Positions 10,477-19,296 of a DNA stretch of 21,825 nucleotides are shown here, in pieces. Position 1 is the first letter of the stretch; every line of letters begins with the position of its first letter. A program made the translations under genes and the position numbers. The notes below the pieces were generated by a model, which did no database searches, was not told the origin of the DNA, and saw only the letters and a program-made list of their open reading frames with translations. This DNA is from a virus, in the IMG/VR virus record IMGVR_UViG_3300025400_000460, positions 1-21,825 of that record; one strand, written 5' to 3'.

Positions 10477-10500
10477 GTGCTAACTTTAAAGGAAACGCAG

Positions 10501-11388
10501 GTGCGCCATAACTATCTTAATAATAAAGACATTCTAAAAGAAATCCACAAAAGCAAAACAACTTACTGTTGTTTTCCAAATCTAGAAGATGCTGCATATG
10601 ACATGATCTTGCTAGATGTTAGTAAAATTAACAAAAAGAACATTTTACAAGCACGTAAAGATCGTGCAGAACGTTTGACTAAACTAGCACACGAGGCCGC
10701 TGTGGCCGCAGATGGTGTTAAACGTAAAATGGACGAGTTTGAAGTCAAGCTCAAAGAAGTCAAAGATACCGATGTAGTATTCCGTGTAATGACGTGGGAA
10801 CATATTCCAGTCGACGATGTTAAAAGTCGCAAGGCCGCAGTTAAGGCAATGGAAGAAGATGGCCTGGTGCGCTCAGAATACGACGATGATGAGCTAGACA
10901 TTGCAGGTAATACAAAATACGTTAAATGTAACTTTCCTCCGTTTTTTCATTATAAAGTCAATGAAGAAGGTGAGCCGTATGTTGTGGGCAAGAGCCATTG
11001 GCAAGGTACACTTAAAAAGGGACACTTTAGTCGCGAACACGGCAAGATGACTCCTAAGCTAGCTCATATGTTTATTAAACTATGCGAACGCTATGCTACA
11101 CGCTCTAACTGGAGAGGATATACTTACAATGACGAAATGCGATCACAGGCACTACTACAGCTATCTCAAATTGGACTTCAGTTTGATGAAGCGAAAAGTC
11201 AAAATCCGTTTGCCTATTATACTGCTGCTATCACCAATTCATTTACTCGGGTACTTAATATCGAAAAGCGTAATCAAAATTTGCGAGACGATATCCTCGA
11301 AATGAACAACTTAACTCCATCCTATACACGCCAGGGTATGAAAATTTCTACTAGTTCTGGTGGTAGCGATGGCGGCTACGATGATTGA
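10501..11388 (+). CDS. gp55: Late transcription sigma factor gp55
   Basis: A 295-aa homologue of T4 gp55, which binds RNA polymerase and reads late octamers. I chose the GTG at 10501, not the GTG 24 bases upstream, because AAGGA lies seven bases before it and the resulting start (RHNYLNNKDILKEI) aligns with the YNYVNNKELL start of T4 gp55. The sigma region-2-like core is about residues 200-270: CERYATRSNWRGYTYNDEMR, LSQIGLQFDE, NPFAYYTAAITNSFTRVLNI and EKRNQN. T4 gp55 is 185 aa. The extra length here lies between the N-terminal helix and the core (about residues 20-190) and includes a Lys/Glu-rich helix and a KSHWQGTLKKGHFSREHGKM segment. The tail is Gly/Ser/Asp-rich. It leads the recombination block and should control the NATAAATA promoters in the window. 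Confidence 0.92.
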   Translation: MRHNYLNNKDILKEIHKSKTTYCCFPNLEDAAYDMILLDVSKINKKNILQARKDRAERLTKLAHEAAVAADGVKRKMDEFEVKLKEVKDTDVVFRVMTWEHIPVDDVKSRKAAVKAMEEDGLVRSEYDDDELDIAGNTKYVKCNFPPFFHYKVNEEGEPYVVGKSHWQGTLKKGHFSREHGKMTPKLAHMFIKLCERYATRSNWRGYTYNDEMRSQALLQLSQIGLQFDEAKSQNPFAYYTAAITNSFTRVLNIEKRNQNLRDDILEMNNLTPSYTRQGMKISTSSGGSDGGYDD

Positions 11389-11436: not shown

Positions 11437-12453
11437 ATGACTAATCTATTTAAAAAGGCCGCGGTCTTTACCGATATACACTTTGGACTAAAATCAAACA
11501 GTCAACTACACAACGATGACTGTTTGAACTTTGTTAAATGGGCTACCCAGAAAGCCAAAGAAGAAGGATGCGAGACTTGCATCTTTACTGGCGACTGGCA
11601 CAATAATCGTGCTAGTATTAATATTCTCACACTTCAATACAGTCTACAAGCACTGGAGCATTTAAATGCCAACTTTGAAAACACTTACTTCATTCCGGGC
11701 AACCATGATTTGTATTATCGCGATAAACGTGATGTACAATCTGTGGAGTGGGCCAAACACCTCAGTAACATTCACATTTGTAACGATTGGACTACTATGG
11801 GCGATGTTACTATTGCTCCTTGGCTCGTGGGCGATGACCATAAGAAGCTTAAAAAGCTAAAAGGCAAATATATGTTCGGGCACTTCGAGTTGCCTGGATA
11901 TATGATGAACGCTATGGTTGCTATGCCCGATCACGGCGAGATGTCTGCAGATTCGTTACTAGGCTTTGAACATGTTTACTCAGGGCACTTCCATAAACGA
12001 CAAACTAAAGGCAATGTTACTTACTTAGGCAATTGCTTCCCGCATAACTACGCAGATGCAGGCGATGACGATCGTGGTCTAATGATTTTAGAATGGGACA
12101 AGCCGCCTGTATATCACGCATGGCCGGATCAACCGTTATATCGTGTGTTTAACTTGTCGGACGTACTTAAACATACCGAAGTTATGCTTAAACCTAACAT
12201 GCATGTACGTGTCAATTTAGACATTGATATTAGCTACGAAGAAGCTACGTTTATCAAAGAAACATTCATTGATACTTACAAACTTAGAGAGATTACAATT
12301 ATCCCAGCTAAGGTTACAGACTTAACCGATTACGAAATACAAGGCAACATTGAATTTGAAAGCGTCGATCAAATTGTATTCGGGCAGTTAAGCACAATTG
12401 ACAGCGAACAATTTAACAAAAATCTATTGTTAGACATTTACAGAAATCTATAG
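11437..12453 (+). CDS. gp47: Recombination endonuclease subunit gp47 (Mre11/SbcD-like)
   Basis: A 338-aa metallophosphoesterase matching T4 gp47 (339 aa). With gp46 it forms the Mre11-Rad50-type complex that resects DNA ends for recombination-dependent replication and degrades host DNA. The metal-binding motifs appear in order: DIH at residues 13-15, GDWHNN at 52-57, GNHD at 88-91, GHF at 148-150 and GHFH at 173-176. The C-terminal third (about residues 210-338) is the capping and gp46-binding region. A promoter with its -10 box next to the ATG drives it. Its TAG shares a base with the GTG of the first radical SAM gene (TAGTG), so the two are translationally coupled. Confidence 0.93.
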   Translation: MTNLFKKAAVFTDIHFGLKSNSQLHNDDCLNFVKWATQKAKEEGCETCIFTGDWHNNRASINILTLQYSLQALEHLNANFENTYFIPGNHDLYYRDKRDVQSVEWAKHLSNIHICNDWTTMGDVTIAPWLVGDDHKKLKKLKGKYMFGHFELPGYMMNAMVAMPDHGEMSADSLLGFEHVYSGHFHKRQTKGNVTYLGNCFPHNYADAGDDDRGLMILEWDKPPVYHAWPDQPLYRVFNLSDVLKHTEVMLKPNMHVRVNLDIDISYEEATFIKETFIDTYKLREITIIPAKVTDLTDYEIQGNIEFESVDQIVFGQLSTIDSEQFNKNLLLDIYRNL

Positions 12454-13445
12454 TGTATAAACTTGAGGACATACGCAGATTAGAAATTGAGCCCACAAAC
12501 ACTTGCCAGGCTCGCTGTCCTCAATGTCTACGCACTCCCACAGATGGTAGCGTAAACAAGACATTAAACAACGAACTAACTTTAGATTTACTTAAAGAAC
12601 GTATTCCTGCTAGCTTTTGGGCTAACTTAACCAGCATTAACTTTAATGGCAGCACCGGCGACTGCATGGCGCATAAAAGTATTCGTAACCTTGTAGAATA
12701 CATGAAGCTACACAGCACAGCGCCTATTGTAATGCACACCAATGGTGGACTAGGATCAACTAGCACATGGACTGATTTAGCTATGTTGCTAGGGCCAGAA
12801 GATAAAGTTATATTTGGCATAGATGGCTTAGCTGATACTAGCCCACTATACAGAATTGGCGTCGACTTTGACCTAGCCGTTAAGAATGCACAAACATTTA
12901 TACTTGCTGGCGGTTATGCAGAATGGCAATATATTGTTTTTAAACATAATCAACATCAAGTTGAAGAGGCTAGACAATTAAGCCGGGATCTAGGATTTGC
13001 ACACTTTTGGTTGCGTAGCTCGGGCCGTTTTACCAATAGCGGATACCAAGACGTTTATGCCAACGGTGTAGTTACTCATCGCTTAGAGCCCGCAGATATT
13101 AAACTTAATTTTGTCGAAGCAGAACTAGAATATAAAAAGAATATTAGTACTACTGCTATTGACTGTGAAGCAATCAATACTAAATGGATATCTATCTATG
13201 CTGACGGAACTGTGTGGCCCTGTTGCCATTTAATGGGATGGCATCGTGCCCACGACTTTAGCATTTCCAATTTAGTTAATAAAAAATTAAATGATGTCAT
13301 TGGCGACTATAAAAAAATTAATTTACACTACAACGACCTCAAAGATATCATCAACAGCGATGTTTTTCAAGTTAAGTATCCTGAAAACTTTGCTAGTAAT
13401 CAACCCAACCCTATTTGCGTAAGCAACTGTAGACGCTGTGAATAA
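12453..13445 (+). CDS. Radical SAM protein with C-terminal SPASM-like cluster (A1)
   Basis: A 330-aa radical SAM protein. The 4Fe-4S/S-adenosylmethionine motif CxxxCxxC is Cys18, Cys22 and Cys25 (TCQARCPQC), at the start of a partial TIM barrel. NGSTGD near residues 65-70 takes the place of the usual GGEP SAM-binding strand. The C-terminal region has cysteines suited to auxiliary clusters: Cys238, Cys257-Cys258 after a DGTVWP turn, and Cys322, Cys326 and Cys329 at the very end. SPASM proteins of this type usually modify peptides or proteins, but no precursor peptide is visible here. The GTG start overlaps the gp47 stop by one base, and the next radical SAM gene overlaps its end by eight bases. 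It has the same layout as the 326-aa protein at 16618-17598, suggesting duplication. The fold is well supported; the substrate is unknown. Confidence 0.85.
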   Translation: MYKLEDIRRLEIEPTNTCQARCPQCLRTPTDGSVNKTLNNELTLDLLKERIPASFWANLTSINFNGSTGDCMAHKSIRNLVEYMKLHSTAPIVMHTNGGLGSTSTWTDLAMLLGPEDKVIFGIDGLADTSPLYRIGVDFDLAVKNAQTFILAGGYAEWQYIVFKHNQHQVEEARQLSRDLGFAHFWLRSSGRFTNSGYQDVYANGVVTHRLEPADIKLNFVEAELEYKKNISTTAIDCEAINTKWISIYADGTVWPCCHLMGWHRAHDFSISNLVNKKLNDVIGDYKKINLHYNDLKDIINSDVFQVKYPENFASNQPNPICVSNCRRCE

Positions 13446-14874
13446 AGAACAATTACGTGCCAATTTAGAACTAGACTACAAGTTAGTAGCTTTTGTTGAC
13501 TTTGCTGACGTTAGCCACACACCAACAGCAGCCTATAAGCTACTAGAAAGTGTACGCAAAGATGTATTTGCTGACTATGAGCGTATTGTGTTTTATGGTA
13601 ACTACCCGGACATAGAATTAGTTAACCACGTTGCTCGTGCTAGAGAATTACTAGACATTGGCGAGTATTTTTGTATTTGGCAAAACGAGATAACAGATGC
13701 AGGTGTACCGGGAACAGGATATCGCGTTAGCCAAGATACTTTTTGTCCGTTACTATGGAGCCATTTAGAAGTTAGACACACAGGCAACGTACACCCTTGT
13801 TGTGTTAGCGCAGACTATTTAGGCAATGCTAACGAAAGCACCCTAACAGAAATATTCCACAGCGACGCTATCAATCAAGTAAGAACCCAACTACTCAACG
13901 GAGTACGTGCCAAAGGCTGTGAGCATTGTTGGCGCATAGAAGATCAGGGGCTAACCAGTAATCGTCAATGGCACGTAAGTAAAAATGCCGAAGAGTTTTA
14001 TGCCACATGGTACGATAGCCTAGCCATACGTAGCTTAGACTTAAAGCCTGGTAATGTATGTAACTTTAAATGTCGTACCTGTAATCCCACTAGCAGTAGT
14101 TTAGTAGCTGACGAGTATAGACAAATACAAATTAAGTCCGGTGTTATTGCCCCTGTTGTTGGCAATCGTTGGGATGGATATAATGAATATACTTGGGCAG
14201 AGTTAGATAAACTATTGCCCACAATAGAAAACTTAGACTTTTACGGCGGCGAACCATTTTTACTCAAAGAGTTAAAAACGTTTTTGCGTAGTGCTGTTGA
14301 GAATGATCATGCCAAACACATAAGGATACACGTTAATACAAACGGTAGTATATATCCCGAAGATTTAATTGATACGTTGTTACAGTTTAAAGAAATTGAT
14401 ATTGCCGTAAGCATTGATAACATTGGTGCACGGTTTGAATTAGAGCGCGGCGGTAGTTGGACTGAAGTCGAACGCAATATACTCAAATTTAAAGAGTTAT
14501 CTAGTAATATCAATTTGTGTGTTATGCCCACAGTTAATATACAAAATGTCTACTACCTAGATGAGTTAATTGCCTGGGCCAACCAAATTGGTGTTCGTTA
14601 TGTATTAAACTTCCTAGATGAACCAAAGTATTTTAATATTGATCGTATGACTCCAGCAGCAAAGCAGTTAGTTGCCAACAAGTATGCCAACTCTCCAGTT
14701 AAGGAGTTACGCAACATAGCCGAACAAGTAGCTAACTCTGAAGGTAGCGATGGGTCAGAGTTCGTAAGACGTGTACGTAGGTTTGATTCTATTAGGGATC
14801 AAGACTTCGGTACAACCCATAAGGAAATTGCCCAAGCGATGGGATTTAATTTGATTTCTCAACAACAAGTATAG
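13438..14874 (+). CDS. Radical SAM protein with N-terminal twitch/SPASM-like cluster (B1)
   Basis: A 478-aa protein with the reverse domain order of its upstream partner. Residues 1-95 form an alpha/beta-looking region I do not recognise. A cysteine cluster follows: Cys103, Cys121-Cys122 after a TGNVHP turn, and Cys161 and Cys164. The radical SAM motif is Cys208, Cys212 and Cys215 (VCNFKCRTC), followed by YGGEPF near residues 269-274 and a NTNGS strand near 300-304. The C-terminal 60 residues are charged and helical. Such proteins are annotated as twitch-domain radical SAM enzymes; their reactions are mostly unknown. The GTG start lies inside the last eight bases of the preceding gene, so expression is probably coupled. 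Its 3' end contains the gp46 promoter. It pairs with the 421-aa protein at 17580-18845, which has the same order but lacks most of the N-terminal region. Confidence 0.85.
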   Translation: MNKEQLRANLELDYKLVAFVDFADVSHTPTAAYKLLESVRKDVFADYERIVFYGNYPDIELVNHVARARELLDIGEYFCIWQNEITDAGVPGTGYRVSQDTFCPLLWSHLEVRHTGNVHPCCVSADYLGNANESTLTEIFHSDAINQVRTQLLNGVRAKGCEHCWRIEDQGLTSNRQWHVSKNAEEFYATWYDSLAIRSLDLKPGNVCNFKCRTCNPTSSSLVADEYRQIQIKSGVIAPVVGNRWDGYNEYTWAELDKLLPTIENLDFYGGEPFLLKELKTFLRSAVENDHAKHIRIHVNTNGSIYPEDLIDTLLQFKEIDIAVSIDNIGARFELERGGSWTEVERNILKFKELSSNINLCVMPTVNIQNVYYLDELIAWANQIGVRYVLNFLDEPKYFNIDRMTPAAKQLVANKYANSPVKELRNIAEQVANSEGSDGSEFVRRVRRFDSIRDQDFGTTHKEIAQAMGFNLISQQQV

Positions 14875-14880
14875 TATAAT
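14851..14880 (+). promoter_or_regulatory. Sigma70-like promoter for gp46, giving a nearly leaderless message
   Basis: TTGATT at 14851-14856, 18 bases, then a perfect TATAAT at 14875-14880. The -35 lies inside the last codons of the upstream radical SAM gene, whose stop is at 14874. The -10 box ends eight bases before the gp46 ATG, so the message would begin about two bases before it. No Shine-Dalgarno is visible. Confidence 0.6.
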
Positions 14881-14888
14881 AGCCAAAT

Positions 14889-16658
14889 ATGTTTAAAATA
14901 AAAGATCTAACCGTTAAGAATTTTATGAGTGTGGGTAATACTACACAAGCAGTCAACTTTGATCGCCAGGACTTAACATTAGTCTTAGGTGAAAACTTAG
15001 ACTTAGGCGGAGACGACTCCGGTGCACGTAACGGTACAGGTAAAACTACAATTATTAATGCACTAAGCTATGCCCTGTACGGTAACGCACTCACTAACAT
15101 CAAGAAAGATAACTTAATCAATAAGACTAACCAAAAGAACATGATGGTTTGTATTGATTTTGAAAAAGACGGACAAAGTTATCGCATCGAGCGTGGGCGT
15201 AAGCCAAACGTAATGAAATTCTTTGTTGGCGATGCTGAACAAGAAATTACCGATGATGCACAAGGTGATAGCCGCGAAACACAAGCAGAAATAGAACGTA
15301 TGCTTGGTATGAGCCACGATATGTTTAAGCATATCGTGGCACTGAACACCTACACAGAACCGTTCCTTGCACTCAAAGCAAACGATCAGCGTACTATCAT
15401 TGAACAGTTGCTTGGTATTACATTGCTTAGTGAAAAGGCCGATAAGTTAAAAGAGCTTAATAAAGAAACCAAAGACGCTATTACAGCCGAAGAGTTTCGC
15501 ATCAAGGCTGTTACTGATGCTAACAAACGAATTGAAGAACAAATTGAAGCATTGAAACGCAGACAAACATTGTGGATAAACAAACATGCAGAAGAGACGC
15601 AAAAGCTACAGGTCGGAATTGAAGAGCTACAGAAAATCGACATCAAGGCCGAGATTCAGGCACACCAAGCGTTCAAGGTTTGGGATCAAACTCGAAAGGA
15701 TCTCAATGAACTATCATCGGCGATTAGCCGTACCAAATTGGACATTAATCGCGAAGAAAAGACTATTAGCAAGATATCAGCAGAAATCGTTTCGTTGGAA
15801 AATCATACGTGTCATACCTGTGGACAGGACTTTCACGACGAAAAGCACCAATCTGTATTGGGATCAAAGCAGAGAGAACTATCGGCAGCTATACAGCTTA
15901 AGGAAGAACATGCTACCCTCCTGGCTGAACTACAGTCAACTCACGATGGGCTGGGCAAACTAGGACCCAAGCCCGAAACGTTCTACGATAAAGAATCAGA
16001 TGCTATTCATCATCAAGCTAGTGTAGACAACTTAATTAAACAGTTAGAAACTAAGCTCATTGAGCAAGACCCTTACGCAGAACAAATTGTAGAAATGACC
16101 GAGCAAGGCTTAGAAGAAGTCAGTTACGATACTATTAACGAGCTTACTAATATTAAAGATCACCAAGAGTTCTTGCTTAAACTATTAACAAACAAAGATT
16201 CATTTATTCGTAAACGTATTATTGATCAGAATTTAAGTTATTTAAACGCCCGCTTGGGACAATACCTAGATCGTATTGGATTACCACACACAGTTAAGTT
16301 TAACAATGACTTATCTGTATCCATTACTGAGCTAGGTAGAGATTTAGACTTTGACAACTTGTCTAGGGGTGAACGTAACAGACTTATTTTAAGTTTGTCG
16401 TGGAGCTTCCGTGATGTTTGGGAAAGTCTATATCAACCCATTAACTTGTTATTCATTGATGAGTTAGTAGACAGCGGTATGGATAGTTCTGGAGTTGAAA
16501 ATTCCTTGGCTATCCTGAAAAAGATGAGTCGTGAAAGTAATAAGAGCATTTGGTTAGTTTCACACAAAGATGAATTAGCAGGTCGTGTAAACAATACACT
16601 CCACGTAGTTAAAGAAAATGGGTTCACAAGTTATAACACCGATATCGACATCGTTTAA
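14889..16658 (+). CDS. gp46: Recombination endonuclease subunit gp46 (Rad50/SbcC-like)
   Basis: A 589-aa SMC-like ATPase matching T4 gp46 (560 aa), the partner of gp47. The Walker A motif is GARNGTGKTT at residues 45-54, just after an Asp/Gly-rich loop. Coiled coil runs over about residues 180-300 and 320-440. At the apex is a zinc-hook CxxC, Cys308 and Cys311 (HTCHTCGQD), where two molecules would join. The ABC signature LSRGE is at residues 491-495 and Walker B LLFIDE at 520-525, followed by VSH near 557-559. It is preceded by 14 bases holding the end of its promoter and no visible ribosome site. Its final 41 bases overlap the start of the third radical SAM gene. Confidence 0.94.
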   Translation: MFKIKDLTVKNFMSVGNTTQAVNFDRQDLTLVLGENLDLGGDDSGARNGTGKTTIINALSYALYGNALTNIKKDNLINKTNQKNMMVCIDFEKDGQSYRIERGRKPNVMKFFVGDAEQEITDDAQGDSRETQAEIERMLGMSHDMFKHIVALNTYTEPFLALKANDQRTIIEQLLGITLLSEKADKLKELNKETKDAITAEEFRIKAVTDANKRIEEQIEALKRRQTLWINKHAEETQKLQVGIEELQKIDIKAEIQAHQAFKVWDQTRKDLNELSSAISRTKLDINREEKTISKISAEIVSLENHTCHTCGQDFHDEKHQSVLGSKQRELSAAIQLKEEHATLLAELQSTHDGLGKLGPKPETFYDKESDAIHHQASVDNLIKQLETKLIEQDPYAEQIVEMTEQGLEEVSYDTINELTNIKDHQEFLLKLLTNKDSFIRKRIIDQNLSYLNARLGQYLDRIGLPHTVKFNNDLSVSITELGRDLDFDNLSRGERNRLILSLSWSFRDVWESLYQPINLLFIDELVDSGMDSSGVENSLAILKKMSRESNKSIWLVSHKDELAGRVNNTLHVVKENGFTSYNTDIDIV

Positions 16659-17598
16659 CTTAGACATAGTTCAAGTTGAATTAAGCTCAAAGTGTACACT
16701 AAAATGTCCACGTTGCCCTCGCACGGAGTTAAAGCTACCTTACTTGAATCAAGAGATTACATTAAAAGAGTTTGTTAAGATCTTTACTCCTGCGGTACTA
16801 AGTCAAATTAAGTATTTGCTGTTCTGTGGGCACACAGGCGATCCTATATATGCAAAAGACTTCTTAGAAATTGTTGATTATGTTAAAACAAATTCAACAA
16901 CACGCTTAGAAATTGTTACCAATGGTAGTTATAAAGATGCCGAGTGGTGGAACTTATTAGGTTGCATGCTAGATGAAGATGACGGAGTAGTGTTTAGCAT
17001 AGATGGCTGGGACGATAAGTCTAACAACCGGTACAGAGTTAACAGCGATTGGGATAGTATACAGTTGGGAATTAAAACATTAGGCGAAGCTAGTCCTTGT
17101 TATATTAACTGGAGTACTATATACTTTAACTTTAATCAAGATAAGATTGAAACTATTGCAAAGTTAGCAGAACGAGCCGGATGCGATACATTCCAGCTTG
17201 TTAAGAGTGCTAAGTTTGATGGACGTTATCTAGTCAGAGGCATAGATCCACTAAAGCCTACAGAAGATTTTGTATCAGAAGATAATAACTACCGGCGTGA
17301 AAAGCAAGTATTTGGCAGGGACGATCCATTTACAATAGAACAGACTAAAACAGCACACCCTTACGCTAAATGCATGAACGGTGCTAAAGAATTAAACATA
17401 ACTGTAGAAGGTTATGTATATCCATGTGGTTGGTTTAACACGGGCTATCAAGAGAATGCGTTTGCTGAGAAATATAAAAATAAAATTAACGCAAAGACAC
17501 GCAGTCTTAAAGATATATTAGAAGATCCTGTATGGGATGAACTAACCAAAGAATTTAACTTAGAGATTTGTAATATAAAATGCCGCAACTGCAAGTAA
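16618..17598 (+). CDS. Radical SAM protein with C-terminal SPASM-like cluster (A2)
   Basis: A 326-aa radical SAM protein with the same plan as A1 at 12453-13445. The motif is Cys26, Cys30 and Cys33 (KCTLKCPRCPR). FCGHTGDP near residues 69-76 replaces GGEP, as NGSTGD does in A1, and a TNGS strand lies near 101-104. C-terminal cysteines are Cys252, Cys270 (after EGYVYP) and Cys318, Cys322 and Cys325 at the extreme end. A1 has an adjacent cysteine pair where A2 has one. The ATG at 16618 lies 41 bases inside gp46, so translation is probably coupled. No good Shine-Dalgarno is seen, and no later start would keep the cysteine motif with a usual leader. The next gene overlaps its end by 19 bases. Substrate unknown. 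Confidence 0.85.
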   Translation: MGSQVITPISTSFNLDIVQVELSSKCTLKCPRCPRTELKLPYLNQEITLKEFVKIFTPAVLSQIKYLLFCGHTGDPIYAKDFLEIVDYVKTNSTTRLEIVTNGSYKDAEWWNLLGCMLDEDDGVVFSIDGWDDKSNNRYRVNSDWDSIQLGIKTLGEASPCYINWSTIYFNFNQDKIETIAKLAERAGCDTFQLVKSAKFDGRYLVRGIDPLKPTEDFVSEDNNYRREKQVFGRDDPFTIEQTKTAHPYAKCMNGAKELNITVEGYVYPCGWFNTGYQENAFAEKYKNKINAKTRSLKDILEDPVWDELTKEFNLEICNIKCRNCK

Positions 17599-18845
17599 AA
17601 GATGTATTCTGTAACATTCCCTGGACCGAAGTCCATATTAATGCTGACGGTACATACCATACCTGCGGTAGTCAACCTAATCCGATGAGTTTAACTCTCA
17701 AAGGACAGATTTATAATGTACACAATATGCCCATCAATGAATGGATTAAAAGCGATTATCAATGTGCGGCTAGAAAAAACAAAGTCAGAGGTATTAGCGA
17801 ACCCTTATGCGGACAATGCTATGCTGAAGATGCTATGGGTTCTAGTAGCAAGCGAGTTAAAGAAAATTTAAAAAGCGGTATTAGTCAGTTAAACTTTGTA
17901 GAAGATTACCAAAATAGTTTCGATCGCAAGTATTTTGATTATTCAGATAGAAATCATGGCATGACTGATATGACTCCTTATAGTTTTCATATGAGTCTAG
18001 GCAATGAGTGCAATTTAGCATGTAAGATGTGTGGGCCAACTGCTAGCAGTAGAATAGCAGTAAAAGAAATACAATCAGGAACATACCATGGCCCAGCACG
18101 TATGAACTGGACTACCGATCAAGAAGCATGGGACGATGTAGTTGACTTTATTTGCAATACTCGAGTATTAAAGTTTGTGCATATCATTGGCGGTGAGCCA
18201 TTAATGAATCCAAAATTTGAAGAATTAGTAGATCGTTTAATTGCAGCAGGTAAAACAGACATCTATTTTGGGTTTACAACAAACGGCACCACCGTTAACA
18301 TTCCGCTATTAGAAAAATTACAAGCATTTCGTCACGTAGACATAGGTATTAGTATAGAGACTATTGGCGACCTTAACGACGCTATCCGTGACGGTTCTAG
18401 CACAGAAACTGTACTGAATAACATCGATATCTACTTAAAATATAGGTCAGAGAGTCATGTTTATGTAACTGTACGTCCTGTACCTAGTGCGCTAAGTGTA
18501 CACACATTAGATGAATTGTATCGATGGTGCATAAGCCGCAAAGTGGATGTACTAACCAACATGCTCACATTCCCCGAGTATCAACAAATTAAAAACCTAC
18601 CAGAAGAAATTAAAGCCAAATTATTAGGACAATACTCTGCGTGGGAGTATAGTGAACCTATGCCCGGTACTAGTGATCCTAGAGACCCTAATAGATTTAA
18701 AGAACATATTGACAGCGAAGTACGTGCTATTGTAAATTGTTTACAAGAGCCAGCAGATACAGCATTAACAAAAGAGTTATATAGTAAATTAACAACATGG
18801 GGGTGGTTGTCTAATCCAAAGTTAAAGAAATATTTTGAAATTTAG
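17580..18845 (+). CDS. Radical SAM protein with N-terminal twitch/SPASM-like cluster (B2)
   Basis: A 421-aa protein with the same order as B1 at 13438-14874. The N-terminal cysteine cluster is Cys11, Cys29 (after NADGTYHT) and Cys77 and Cys80. The radical SAM motif is Cys144, Cys148 and Cys151 (ECNLACKMC), followed by IGGEPL near residues 203-208 and FTTNGT near 232-237. It lacks the roughly 90-residue N-terminal region of B1 and has a single cysteine where B1 has two. The ATG lies 19 bases inside A2. The GIY-YIG endonuclease follows after 22 bases. Two A-B pairs with matching order, spacing and domain plan suggest they arose by duplication of one pair, or were acquired as related pairs. Reaction and substrate are unknown. 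Confidence 0.85.
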   Translation: MPQLQVKDVFCNIPWTEVHINADGTYHTCGSQPNPMSLTLKGQIYNVHNMPINEWIKSDYQCAARKNKVRGISEPLCGQCYAEDAMGSSSKRVKENLKSGISQLNFVEDYQNSFDRKYFDYSDRNHGMTDMTPYSFHMSLGNECNLACKMCGPTASSRIAVKEIQSGTYHGPARMNWTTDQEAWDDVVDFICNTRVLKFVHIIGGEPLMNPKFEELVDRLIAAGKTDIYFGFTTNGTTVNIPLLEKLQAFRHVDIGISIETIGDLNDAIRDGSSTETVLNNIDIYLKYRSESHVYVTVRPVPSALSVHTLDELYRWCISRKVDVLTNMLTFPEYQQIKNLPEEIKAKLLGQYSAWEYSEPMPGTSDPRDPNRFKEHIDSEVRAIVNCLQEPADTALTKELYSKLTTWGWLSNPKLKKYFEI

Positions 18846-18867: not shown

Positions 18868-19296
18868 ATGTCATGGATTTACGAAAATACTCAAGTAGAA
18901 ACTTTACCCGAAGATTGTGTCGGATTTGTTTATTTAATAACAAATAACTTATCTGGCAGGAAGTATATTGGCAAAAAACTTGCAAAATTTAGCAAAACAA
19001 CGTATAAAGTAGTTAAGTTAAAGAACGGTAAGAAGAAGCGTAAGAAGATTAAGGGTAAGATTGATTCGGATTGGATGACTTATTATGGCTCCAGTCCAGA
19101 TTTAACAAAAGATGTAGTTGCACTTGGAGTAGAAAACTTTAGTAGAGAAATACTTTATTATTGTAAGAGTAAATCTGAGTGTAGTTATATCGAGGCGAGA
19201 GAACAATTTGCTCGCAGAGTTTTAGAAACTACAGATTATTATAACGGACACATACAAGTCCGTGTACATGGCTCACATATTATCAACAAGATTTAA
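18868..19296 (+). CDS. GIY-YIG family endonuclease (SegE-like)
   Basis: A 142-aa protein with a GIY-YIG nuclease domain. The first core strand is GFVYLITN at residues 19-26, with FVY in place of GIY, and the second is KYIG at 32-35. A very basic segment (about residues 47-64, KVVKLKNGKKKRKKIKGK) may contact DNA. SDWMTYYGSS lies at 67-76, and SYIEAREQF at about 106-114 contains the likely catalytic Glu109. YYNGHI lies near the end. The layout resembles free-standing Seg-type homing endonucleases of T4-like phages. It is 22 bases after the last radical SAM gene and next to the non-coding stretch 19297-19756, a usual position for an intergenic homing nuclease. No clear promoter or Shine-Dalgarno is visible. 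Confidence 0.8.
   Translation: MSWIYENTQVETLPEDCVGFVYLITNNLSGRKYIGKKLAKFSKTTYKVVKLKNGKKKRKKIKGKIDSDWMTYYGSSPDLTKDVVALGVENFSREILYYCKSKSECSYIEAREQFARRVLETTDYYNGHIQVRVHGSHIINKI

Follow-up and report, generated by a model that had tools for sequence, protein, structure and literature searches.

Do the four radical S-adenosylmethionine (SAM) genes found beside gp47 and gp46 of a T4-like phage work together, and did they arise as copies of one another? The question is raised by a stretch of viral DNA of 21,825 nucleotides, positions 1 to 21,825 of the IMG/VR record IMGVR_UViG_3300025400_000460, which we call the window. Its plus strand carries the run gp55-gp47-A1-B1-gp46-A2-B2-segE, with baseplate-type genes on the minus strand on both sides; A1, B1, A2 and B2 are the radical-SAM genes. 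A first, sequence-only reading had proposed that they are two copies of one A-B module. We find that A2 and B2 are a genuine conserved pair, a fixed cassette, and that the stretch from gp55 through gp47 and gp46 to segE is a cargo hotspot in T4-like phages, with variable radical-SAM content. The four genes are, as judged from their trees, of separate ancestry and not a copied pair.

The evidence for the pair comes from locus scans, each taking the best 80 loci; the counts are not population frequencies. The gp47 scan is independent of the radical-SAM genes, and loci met by both scans are counted under the radical-SAM scan. In the B tree every hotspot B2 (42 of 42) lies directly after A2, and A2 and B2 overlap in each of the 119 loci in the count, which includes repeats. 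The pair occupies 49 distinct gp46-segE intervals in loci from radical-SAM queries, and is also held by at least three loci of the gp47 scan (L218, L221 and L280). A2 and B2 distances remain correlated given gp46, with a partial r of 0.26 that was reached by none of 1000 permutations. B2 alleles are exchanged at a fixed slot behind similar A2s, since two B2 classes only about 35% identical (window 17580-18845; B2 of L117, L119, L123 and L162) sit behind A2s that are 77-88% identical. The A-B partnership put forward in the sequence-only reading is supported for A2-B2, with its overlapping junctions and a hotspot B2 never seen without A2, and is echoed by A-B adjacency in Bdellovibrionales; B1 usually occurs without A1.

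The content of the hotspot varies. Distinct gp46-segE intervals in the gp47 scan were empty (20) or held A2 alone (13), the A1 type alone (8), A1 with A2 (7) or two A1-type genes (1). The exact A1-B1 ... A2-B2 layout is found in the window, near-identical contigs and the relatives L009/L010, L019/L158 and L020; A1-B1 pairing is limited to one small clade, B1 usually being alone. Other cargo is scattered (AMP-binding enzyme, TauD, TctC, methyltransferase), the remaining non-radical-SAM cargo is mostly unknown, and Pfam gave no match for most hotspot and island neighbours. The AMP-binding enzyme and TauD-type dioxygenase genes lie in the hotspot of some phages (L126:6738-8249 and L033:8723-9793). 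The features of the window are as follows.

10477..11388, plus strand: gp55-like late sigma factor, left hotspot border (PHROG 12791 'sigma factor for late transcription', expectation value (E) 1.3e-77)
11437..12453, plus strand: gp47, SbcD-like nuclease subunit (PHROG 100, E 2.5e-62; Metallophos above cut-off)
12453..13445, plus strand: A1, putative radical SAM protein with a C-terminal four-cysteine twitch-type domain (330 residues, GTG start; SPASM, conserved cysteines)
13438..14874, plus strand: B1, putative N-terminal twitch radical SAM protein (NF033640) with an extra alpha/beta domain of about 95 residues at the N-terminus (478 residues)
13438..13725, plus strand: the extra alpha/beta domain of B1, approximately residues 1-96, kept in the B1 family and missing from B2
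14889..16658, plus strand: gp46, SbcC-like ATPase subunit (PHROG 77, E 7.3e-106)
16618..17598, plus strand: A2, putative radical SAM protein with a C-terminal four-cysteine twitch-type domain (326 residues; PF04055 and SPASM)
17580..18845, plus strand: B2, putative N-terminal twitch radical SAM protein (NF033640; 421 residues)
18868..19296, plus strand: SegE-like GIY-YIG endonuclease, right hotspot border (PF19835 109 bits, cut-off 25)

Recomputed open reading frames confirmed the lengths, the order gp47-A1-B1-gp46-A2-B2 and the overlaps reported earlier (gp47/A1 1 base, A1/B1 8, gp46/A2 41, A2/B2 19); a gap of 14 bases separates B1 from gp46. As a sign of A-B partnership the overlaps were discounted. 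They are weak evidence on their own because short overlaps are normal throughout the operon, where most genes overlap or nearly touch a neighbour and the median gaps across loci are -4 for gp47-B1, -41 for gp46-A2 and -28 for A1-A2. The SegE-like endonuclease (18868-19296) also matches PHROG 447, named 'NAD synthetase', which looks like a misannotation.

What kind of enzyme does each gene encode? In A proteins the radical SAM domain is followed by a C-terminal SPASM-type domain, whilst B proteins have an N-terminal SPASM-type domain and then radical SAM. A2 scores above the cut-offs for both PF04055 (32.8 bits, cut-off 29.5) and SPASM (PF13186; 30.0 bits, cut-off 21.5). A1 passes for SPASM (30.9 bits) and falls under the cut-off for PF04055 (14.2 bits). 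B1 and B2 exceed the PF04055 cut-off with 48.4 and 63.2 bits, and are members of NF033640, the twitch domain-containing radical SAM proteins (304.8 and 245.2 bits, cut-off 170), to which A2 at 32.7 bits and A1, with no listed match, do not belong. B1 and B2 resemble that family in placing the auxiliary domain before the CxxxCxxC core; they differ in that B1 adds its N-terminal domain of about 95 residues and B2 has a linked A-type partner, and the family name gives no substrate. Weak stand-alone relatives of the extra B1 domain (13438-13725), of 180-222 residues, occur in the same hotspot.

Conservation was assessed in alignments of 59 A2, 23 A1-side, 47 B2 and 37 B1 proteins. CxxxCxxC is present in 100% of the members of each family, and four auxiliary cysteines, spaced C-x12/13-G-x4-C ... 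C-x2/3-C, occur in every aligned sequence. The invariant positions are core Cys18, 22 and 25 with auxiliary Cys238, 257, 322 and 326 on the A1 side; core Cys26, 30 and 33 with auxiliary Cys252, 270, 318 and 322 in A2; and auxiliary Cys11, 29, 77 and 80, core Cys144, 148 and 151 and GGE 204-206 in B2. In B1 auxiliary Cys103, 121, 161 and 164, core Cys208, 212 and 215 and GGE(P) 270-273 are invariant or nearly so. The B architecture described earlier, an auxiliary cysteine cluster ahead of CxxxCxxC and a true GGEP, is borne out by the conserved cysteines and GGE.

The A-type motifs need some correction. The N-terminal CxxxCxxC stands, but the terminal set that was taken for a second CxxxCxxC is really C-x3-C, the last cysteine not being conserved. 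The full SPASM complement of seven cysteines and two auxiliary clusters is not found in A1 or A2, which have four invariant auxiliary cysteines only; on this account, and given the variable last cysteine of the C-terminal triad, we call the A auxiliary domain twitch-type. The sequences indicate a single-cluster twitch domain in A and B alike. The strand at the GGEP position (NGSTGD or GHTGDP) had been considered degenerate. It has the form GxxGD, with Gly71, Gly74 and Asp75 invariant in the 59 A2s, where the proline is present in 97%, and Gly66, Gly69 and Asp70 invariant in 23 of 23 A1-side proteins; it is conserved in its own form, and this conservation across both families rules out a degenerate A-type active site. 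Nor is the idea of one active and one modified site supported, since the full set of core cysteines is kept in A and B alike, and each has an invariant strand at this position. All four proteins look active and none decayed, because the core and auxiliary cysteines and the A-type strand are invariant in their own families.

AlphaFold2 gave confident models for B1 and A2 (predicted local distance difference test, pLDDT, 90.8 and 91.2). For both, the top Foldseek match is BlsE of blasticidin S biosynthesis, with about 15% identity across the matched fold; other near folds are SkfB, SuiB, CteB, MoaA, viperin and TYW1, with anSME for A2. BlsE acts on a nucleoside sugar acid. The auxiliary segment of B1 also matches BtrN in sequence (E about 1e-6). 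The likeness to BtrN and BlsE, which act on aminocyclitols and nucleoside sugars, is one of auxiliary-segment sequence and of fold; the identity is low, and the B auxiliary domain lies ahead of the core. For these models the nearest solved folds confirm the enzyme class and say nothing of the substrate, on which fold comparison was uninformative.

Relatives of the phage genes occur in bacteria, predatory ones included. A genome scan found relatives of A2 in assemblies of Oligoflexia, Bdellovibrionales and other groups. Their neighbours there are ordinary chromosomal genes (TruB, thiolase and pyruvate kinase, for example), and NF033640 genes number several to many per genome in the Oligoflexia and Bdellovibrionales assemblies. 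In 60 Bdellovibrionales genomes, B is present in 21 and A in 11, all 11 of which have B (p 1e-6). Of 35 A genes, 15 lie within 500 bp of a B gene, against 0.37 expected under random placement, a null that takes no account of radical-SAM genes being clustered in islands. Many of these neighbours are on opposite strands. The bacterial arrays are like the hotspot in having A- and B-type relatives, often adjoining; they are unlike it in being chromosomal, of mixed strands and supplied with extra B12 radical-SAM and third radical-SAM genes. They also hold carbamoyltransferase, QueC-like, Asp/Arg hydroxylase-like and glycosyltransferase genes. A triplet of a third radical-SAM gene (379-393 residues), an A1-type and a B1-type gene recurs in Bdellovibrionales (L359:9508-13156, L364:1700-5394 and L366:3442-7155).

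Related phages carry further radical-SAM genes elsewhere. The closest long relative, G064 (140,816 bases), has 13 PF04055 matches and a co-directional island (C1 110755-128201; L442:4755-19863, L443:1726-3201) of six NF033640 genes, another radical-SAM gene and unknown genes of about 300 residues, with a carbamoyltransferase a few kb downstream. A similar island, also with a carbamoyltransferase, is present in L064. In the pelagiphage Mosig, MoaA-like radical-SAM genes are accompanied by carbamoyltransferase, aminotransferase and methyltransferase genes, and in CP220 radical-SAM genes adjoin nucleotide-diphospho-sugar transferase-fold genes and an amidinotransferase. The B trees relate the B1 clade of the hotspot to one of the island lineages, which makes the B genes of hotspot and island paralogues. 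The L064 island is headed by a 320-residue gene of unknown function (L064:3931-4893), whose close relatives in about 75 viral contigs gave no function; searches of the PDB with two island proteins returned nothing useful.

Radical-SAM-rich T4-like phages are already known, and the conserved A2-B2 setting is a variant of these. The T4-related Campylobacter phages CP220 and CPt10 have 11 and 12 radical-SAM genes, including an interchangeable module of five with an amidinotransferase (PMC2853527). Their A-like genes match A1 and A2 at about 24%, but their genomic neighbourhood is a different one with no gp46/gp47 hotspot described (PMC2853527), and sequence searches found no N-twitch B partner in them. 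TARA_ERS488813_N000010, from a marine T4-like virus, has 12 radical-SAM genes (PMC5332604). It resembles the window's phage group in description, as an aquatic T4-like phage with about a dozen such genes; the excerpted account reports a count without layout or pairing. In pelagimyophages variable radical-SAM cassettes lie in the host recognition cluster, that is, in the tail-fibre region, and freshwater SAR11 phages are reported without radical-SAM genes (PMC7029224). The open-licence literature examined yielded phage radical-SAM gene counts; neither this layout nor its function was found described there, nor were the gp46-A2-B2-segE anchor, the mirrored C-/N-twitch pairing, the B2 exchange or the Bdellovibrionales link. 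Phage genomes with some twelve radical-SAM genes have been on record since 2010, and that literature gives the genes no established function. The gp46-A2-B2-segE arrangement supplies a fixed, conserved anchor for these genes and sets a true enzyme pair apart from chance neighbours; of the two partners, one is exchanged and the other kept, and both types are linked to bacterial arrays. A2-B2 is also a small, expressible two-protein unit with which to ask what phage radical-SAM enzymes make.

What, then, might the genes do? Tentatively, we favour a hotspot in which radical-SAM lineages come and go and A2-B2 is a fixed cassette that tailors one small molecule, most plausibly a sugar, nucleotide sugar or glycan, with B2 setting the product. 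Genes of several old lineages are gained, lost and swapped between gp55, gp47, gp46 and segE. The hotspot itself, the conservation of the cysteines, the separate origins, the linkage of A2 with B2, the swapping of B2 alleles and the arrays in bacteria are observations; enzyme activity and a shared pathway are inferred. Each enzyme would cleave S-adenosylmethionine at the CxxxCxxC-bound cluster, whilst its one auxiliary cluster may help to hold or oxidise the substrate. A2 and B2 would act on the same molecule, in sequence or as a complex, and A1 and B1 might serve one larger pathway together with the island elsewhere in related phages. The product could end on the host envelope or virion. The exchangeable B2 would set a variable product, as in serotype conversion, because B2 alleles swap behind a constant A2. 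A shared pathway for A2 and B2 is fairly supported; genomic company and fold class hint, weakly and by analogy, at the glycan or nucleotide-sugar substrate. Several observations weigh against this reading. The A2 and B1 fold matches are of a generic kind, with peptide maturases (SkfB, SuiB, CteB), MoaA and viperin among them; linkage is one-sided, with 20 A2-bearing intervals lacking B2 in the gp47 scan; and no glycan gene was seen inside the hotspot in the cargo annotated by Pfam. The carbamoyltransferase company is that of individual genomes, and the pathway link between hotspot and island consists of shared genomes and related sequences only. A stricter version, in which A2 and B2 are an obligate two-enzyme system whose C- and N-terminal twitch domains serve one substrate, B2 is swapped to change the product and the logic is shared, in expanded arrays, with Bdellovibrionales, appears unlikely to us.

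Alternatively, the genes could be unrelated cargo collected by a site that tolerates insertion, with A2 and B2 adjacent through inheritance and packing and not as partners. The tight packing of the whole operon is in keeping with this, as is the occurrence of A2, A1 and B1 alone and the independent recombination of A2 and B2. It is rendered somewhat doubtful by the constant place of B2 behind A2, by the recurrence of the pair over large divergence, by the distance correlation that persists given gp46, and by Bdellovibrionales, where A is found only where B is present and often adjoins it.

Could A and B mature ribosomally made peptides, or else modify a protein of the phage or its host? Peptide maturases commonly have SPASM-type domains, and SkfB, SuiB, CteB and anSME are among the fold neighbours, but it is one cluster and not the full SPASM set that is conserved. 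The A and B proteins score far below cut-off for all listed curated models of maturases of ribosomally synthesized and post-translationally modified peptides. The overlapping A-B junctions leave no space for a precursor gene between them, small open reading frames elsewhere not having been searched. We judge this role improbable. Modification of nucleotides, RNA or phage DNA we consider less probable still. The genes do sit in an operon for replication and late transcription, QueC-like genes occur in a Bdellovibrionales array and viperin, MoaA and TYW1 are near folds; against this, no base-modification gene was seen in the hotspot, matches to the QueE-like PHROG 2076 are marginal (B1 E 0.0015, B2 E 0.0026, A proteins without match) and scores for the viperin-like family NF038283 are far under the cut-off of 180 (B1 30.1, A2 16.8, B2 24.2 bits). 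With scores under the family thresholds, identity as a QueE-like 7-deazaguanine enzyme or as viperin was rejected.

The proposal that an A-B heterodimer with one active and one modified site was duplicated around gp46 draws on the same A-B order at both places and on identities of 26% (A1-A2) and 25% (B1-B2), and is hardly credible in view of the conserved A-type motifs, the usual absence of A1 beside B1 and the trees that follow. A2 falls in a clade of 59 rows and A1 in one of four, the next relative of which (L101) has no adjoining B1. B1 belongs to a clade of 39 rows, only four with A1, whilst the B2 clade comprises 42 A2-linked proteins and five from other large phages. Approximately unbiased (AU) tests rejected trees that force A1 together with the paired A2s (p 5e-51), or A1-linked B1 together with either the paired B2s (p 6e-56) or the wider B2 clade (p 1e-9). 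For A1 and the wider A2 clade the outcome was borderline, short of a clear rejection (p 0.056). Since the groups were defined after the trees had been seen, these p-values are indicative. Together, trees and tests rule out a duplicated A-B module, and the homologues that regularly occur alone, B1 mostly without A1 and A2 without B2 in the intervals counted above, speak against it too. When bacterial sequences are added to the A tree, A genes from Bdellovibrionales appear on the A1 side as well as the A2 side, so the split between A1 and A2 predates this phage lineage; a B tree that includes bacteria agrees, on a weaker backbone. One contig in a 'Candidatus Pacearchaeota' metagenome-assembled genome (L292/L329, G005 C42) has an A2 nested among those of phages; the contig may be viral and misbinned.

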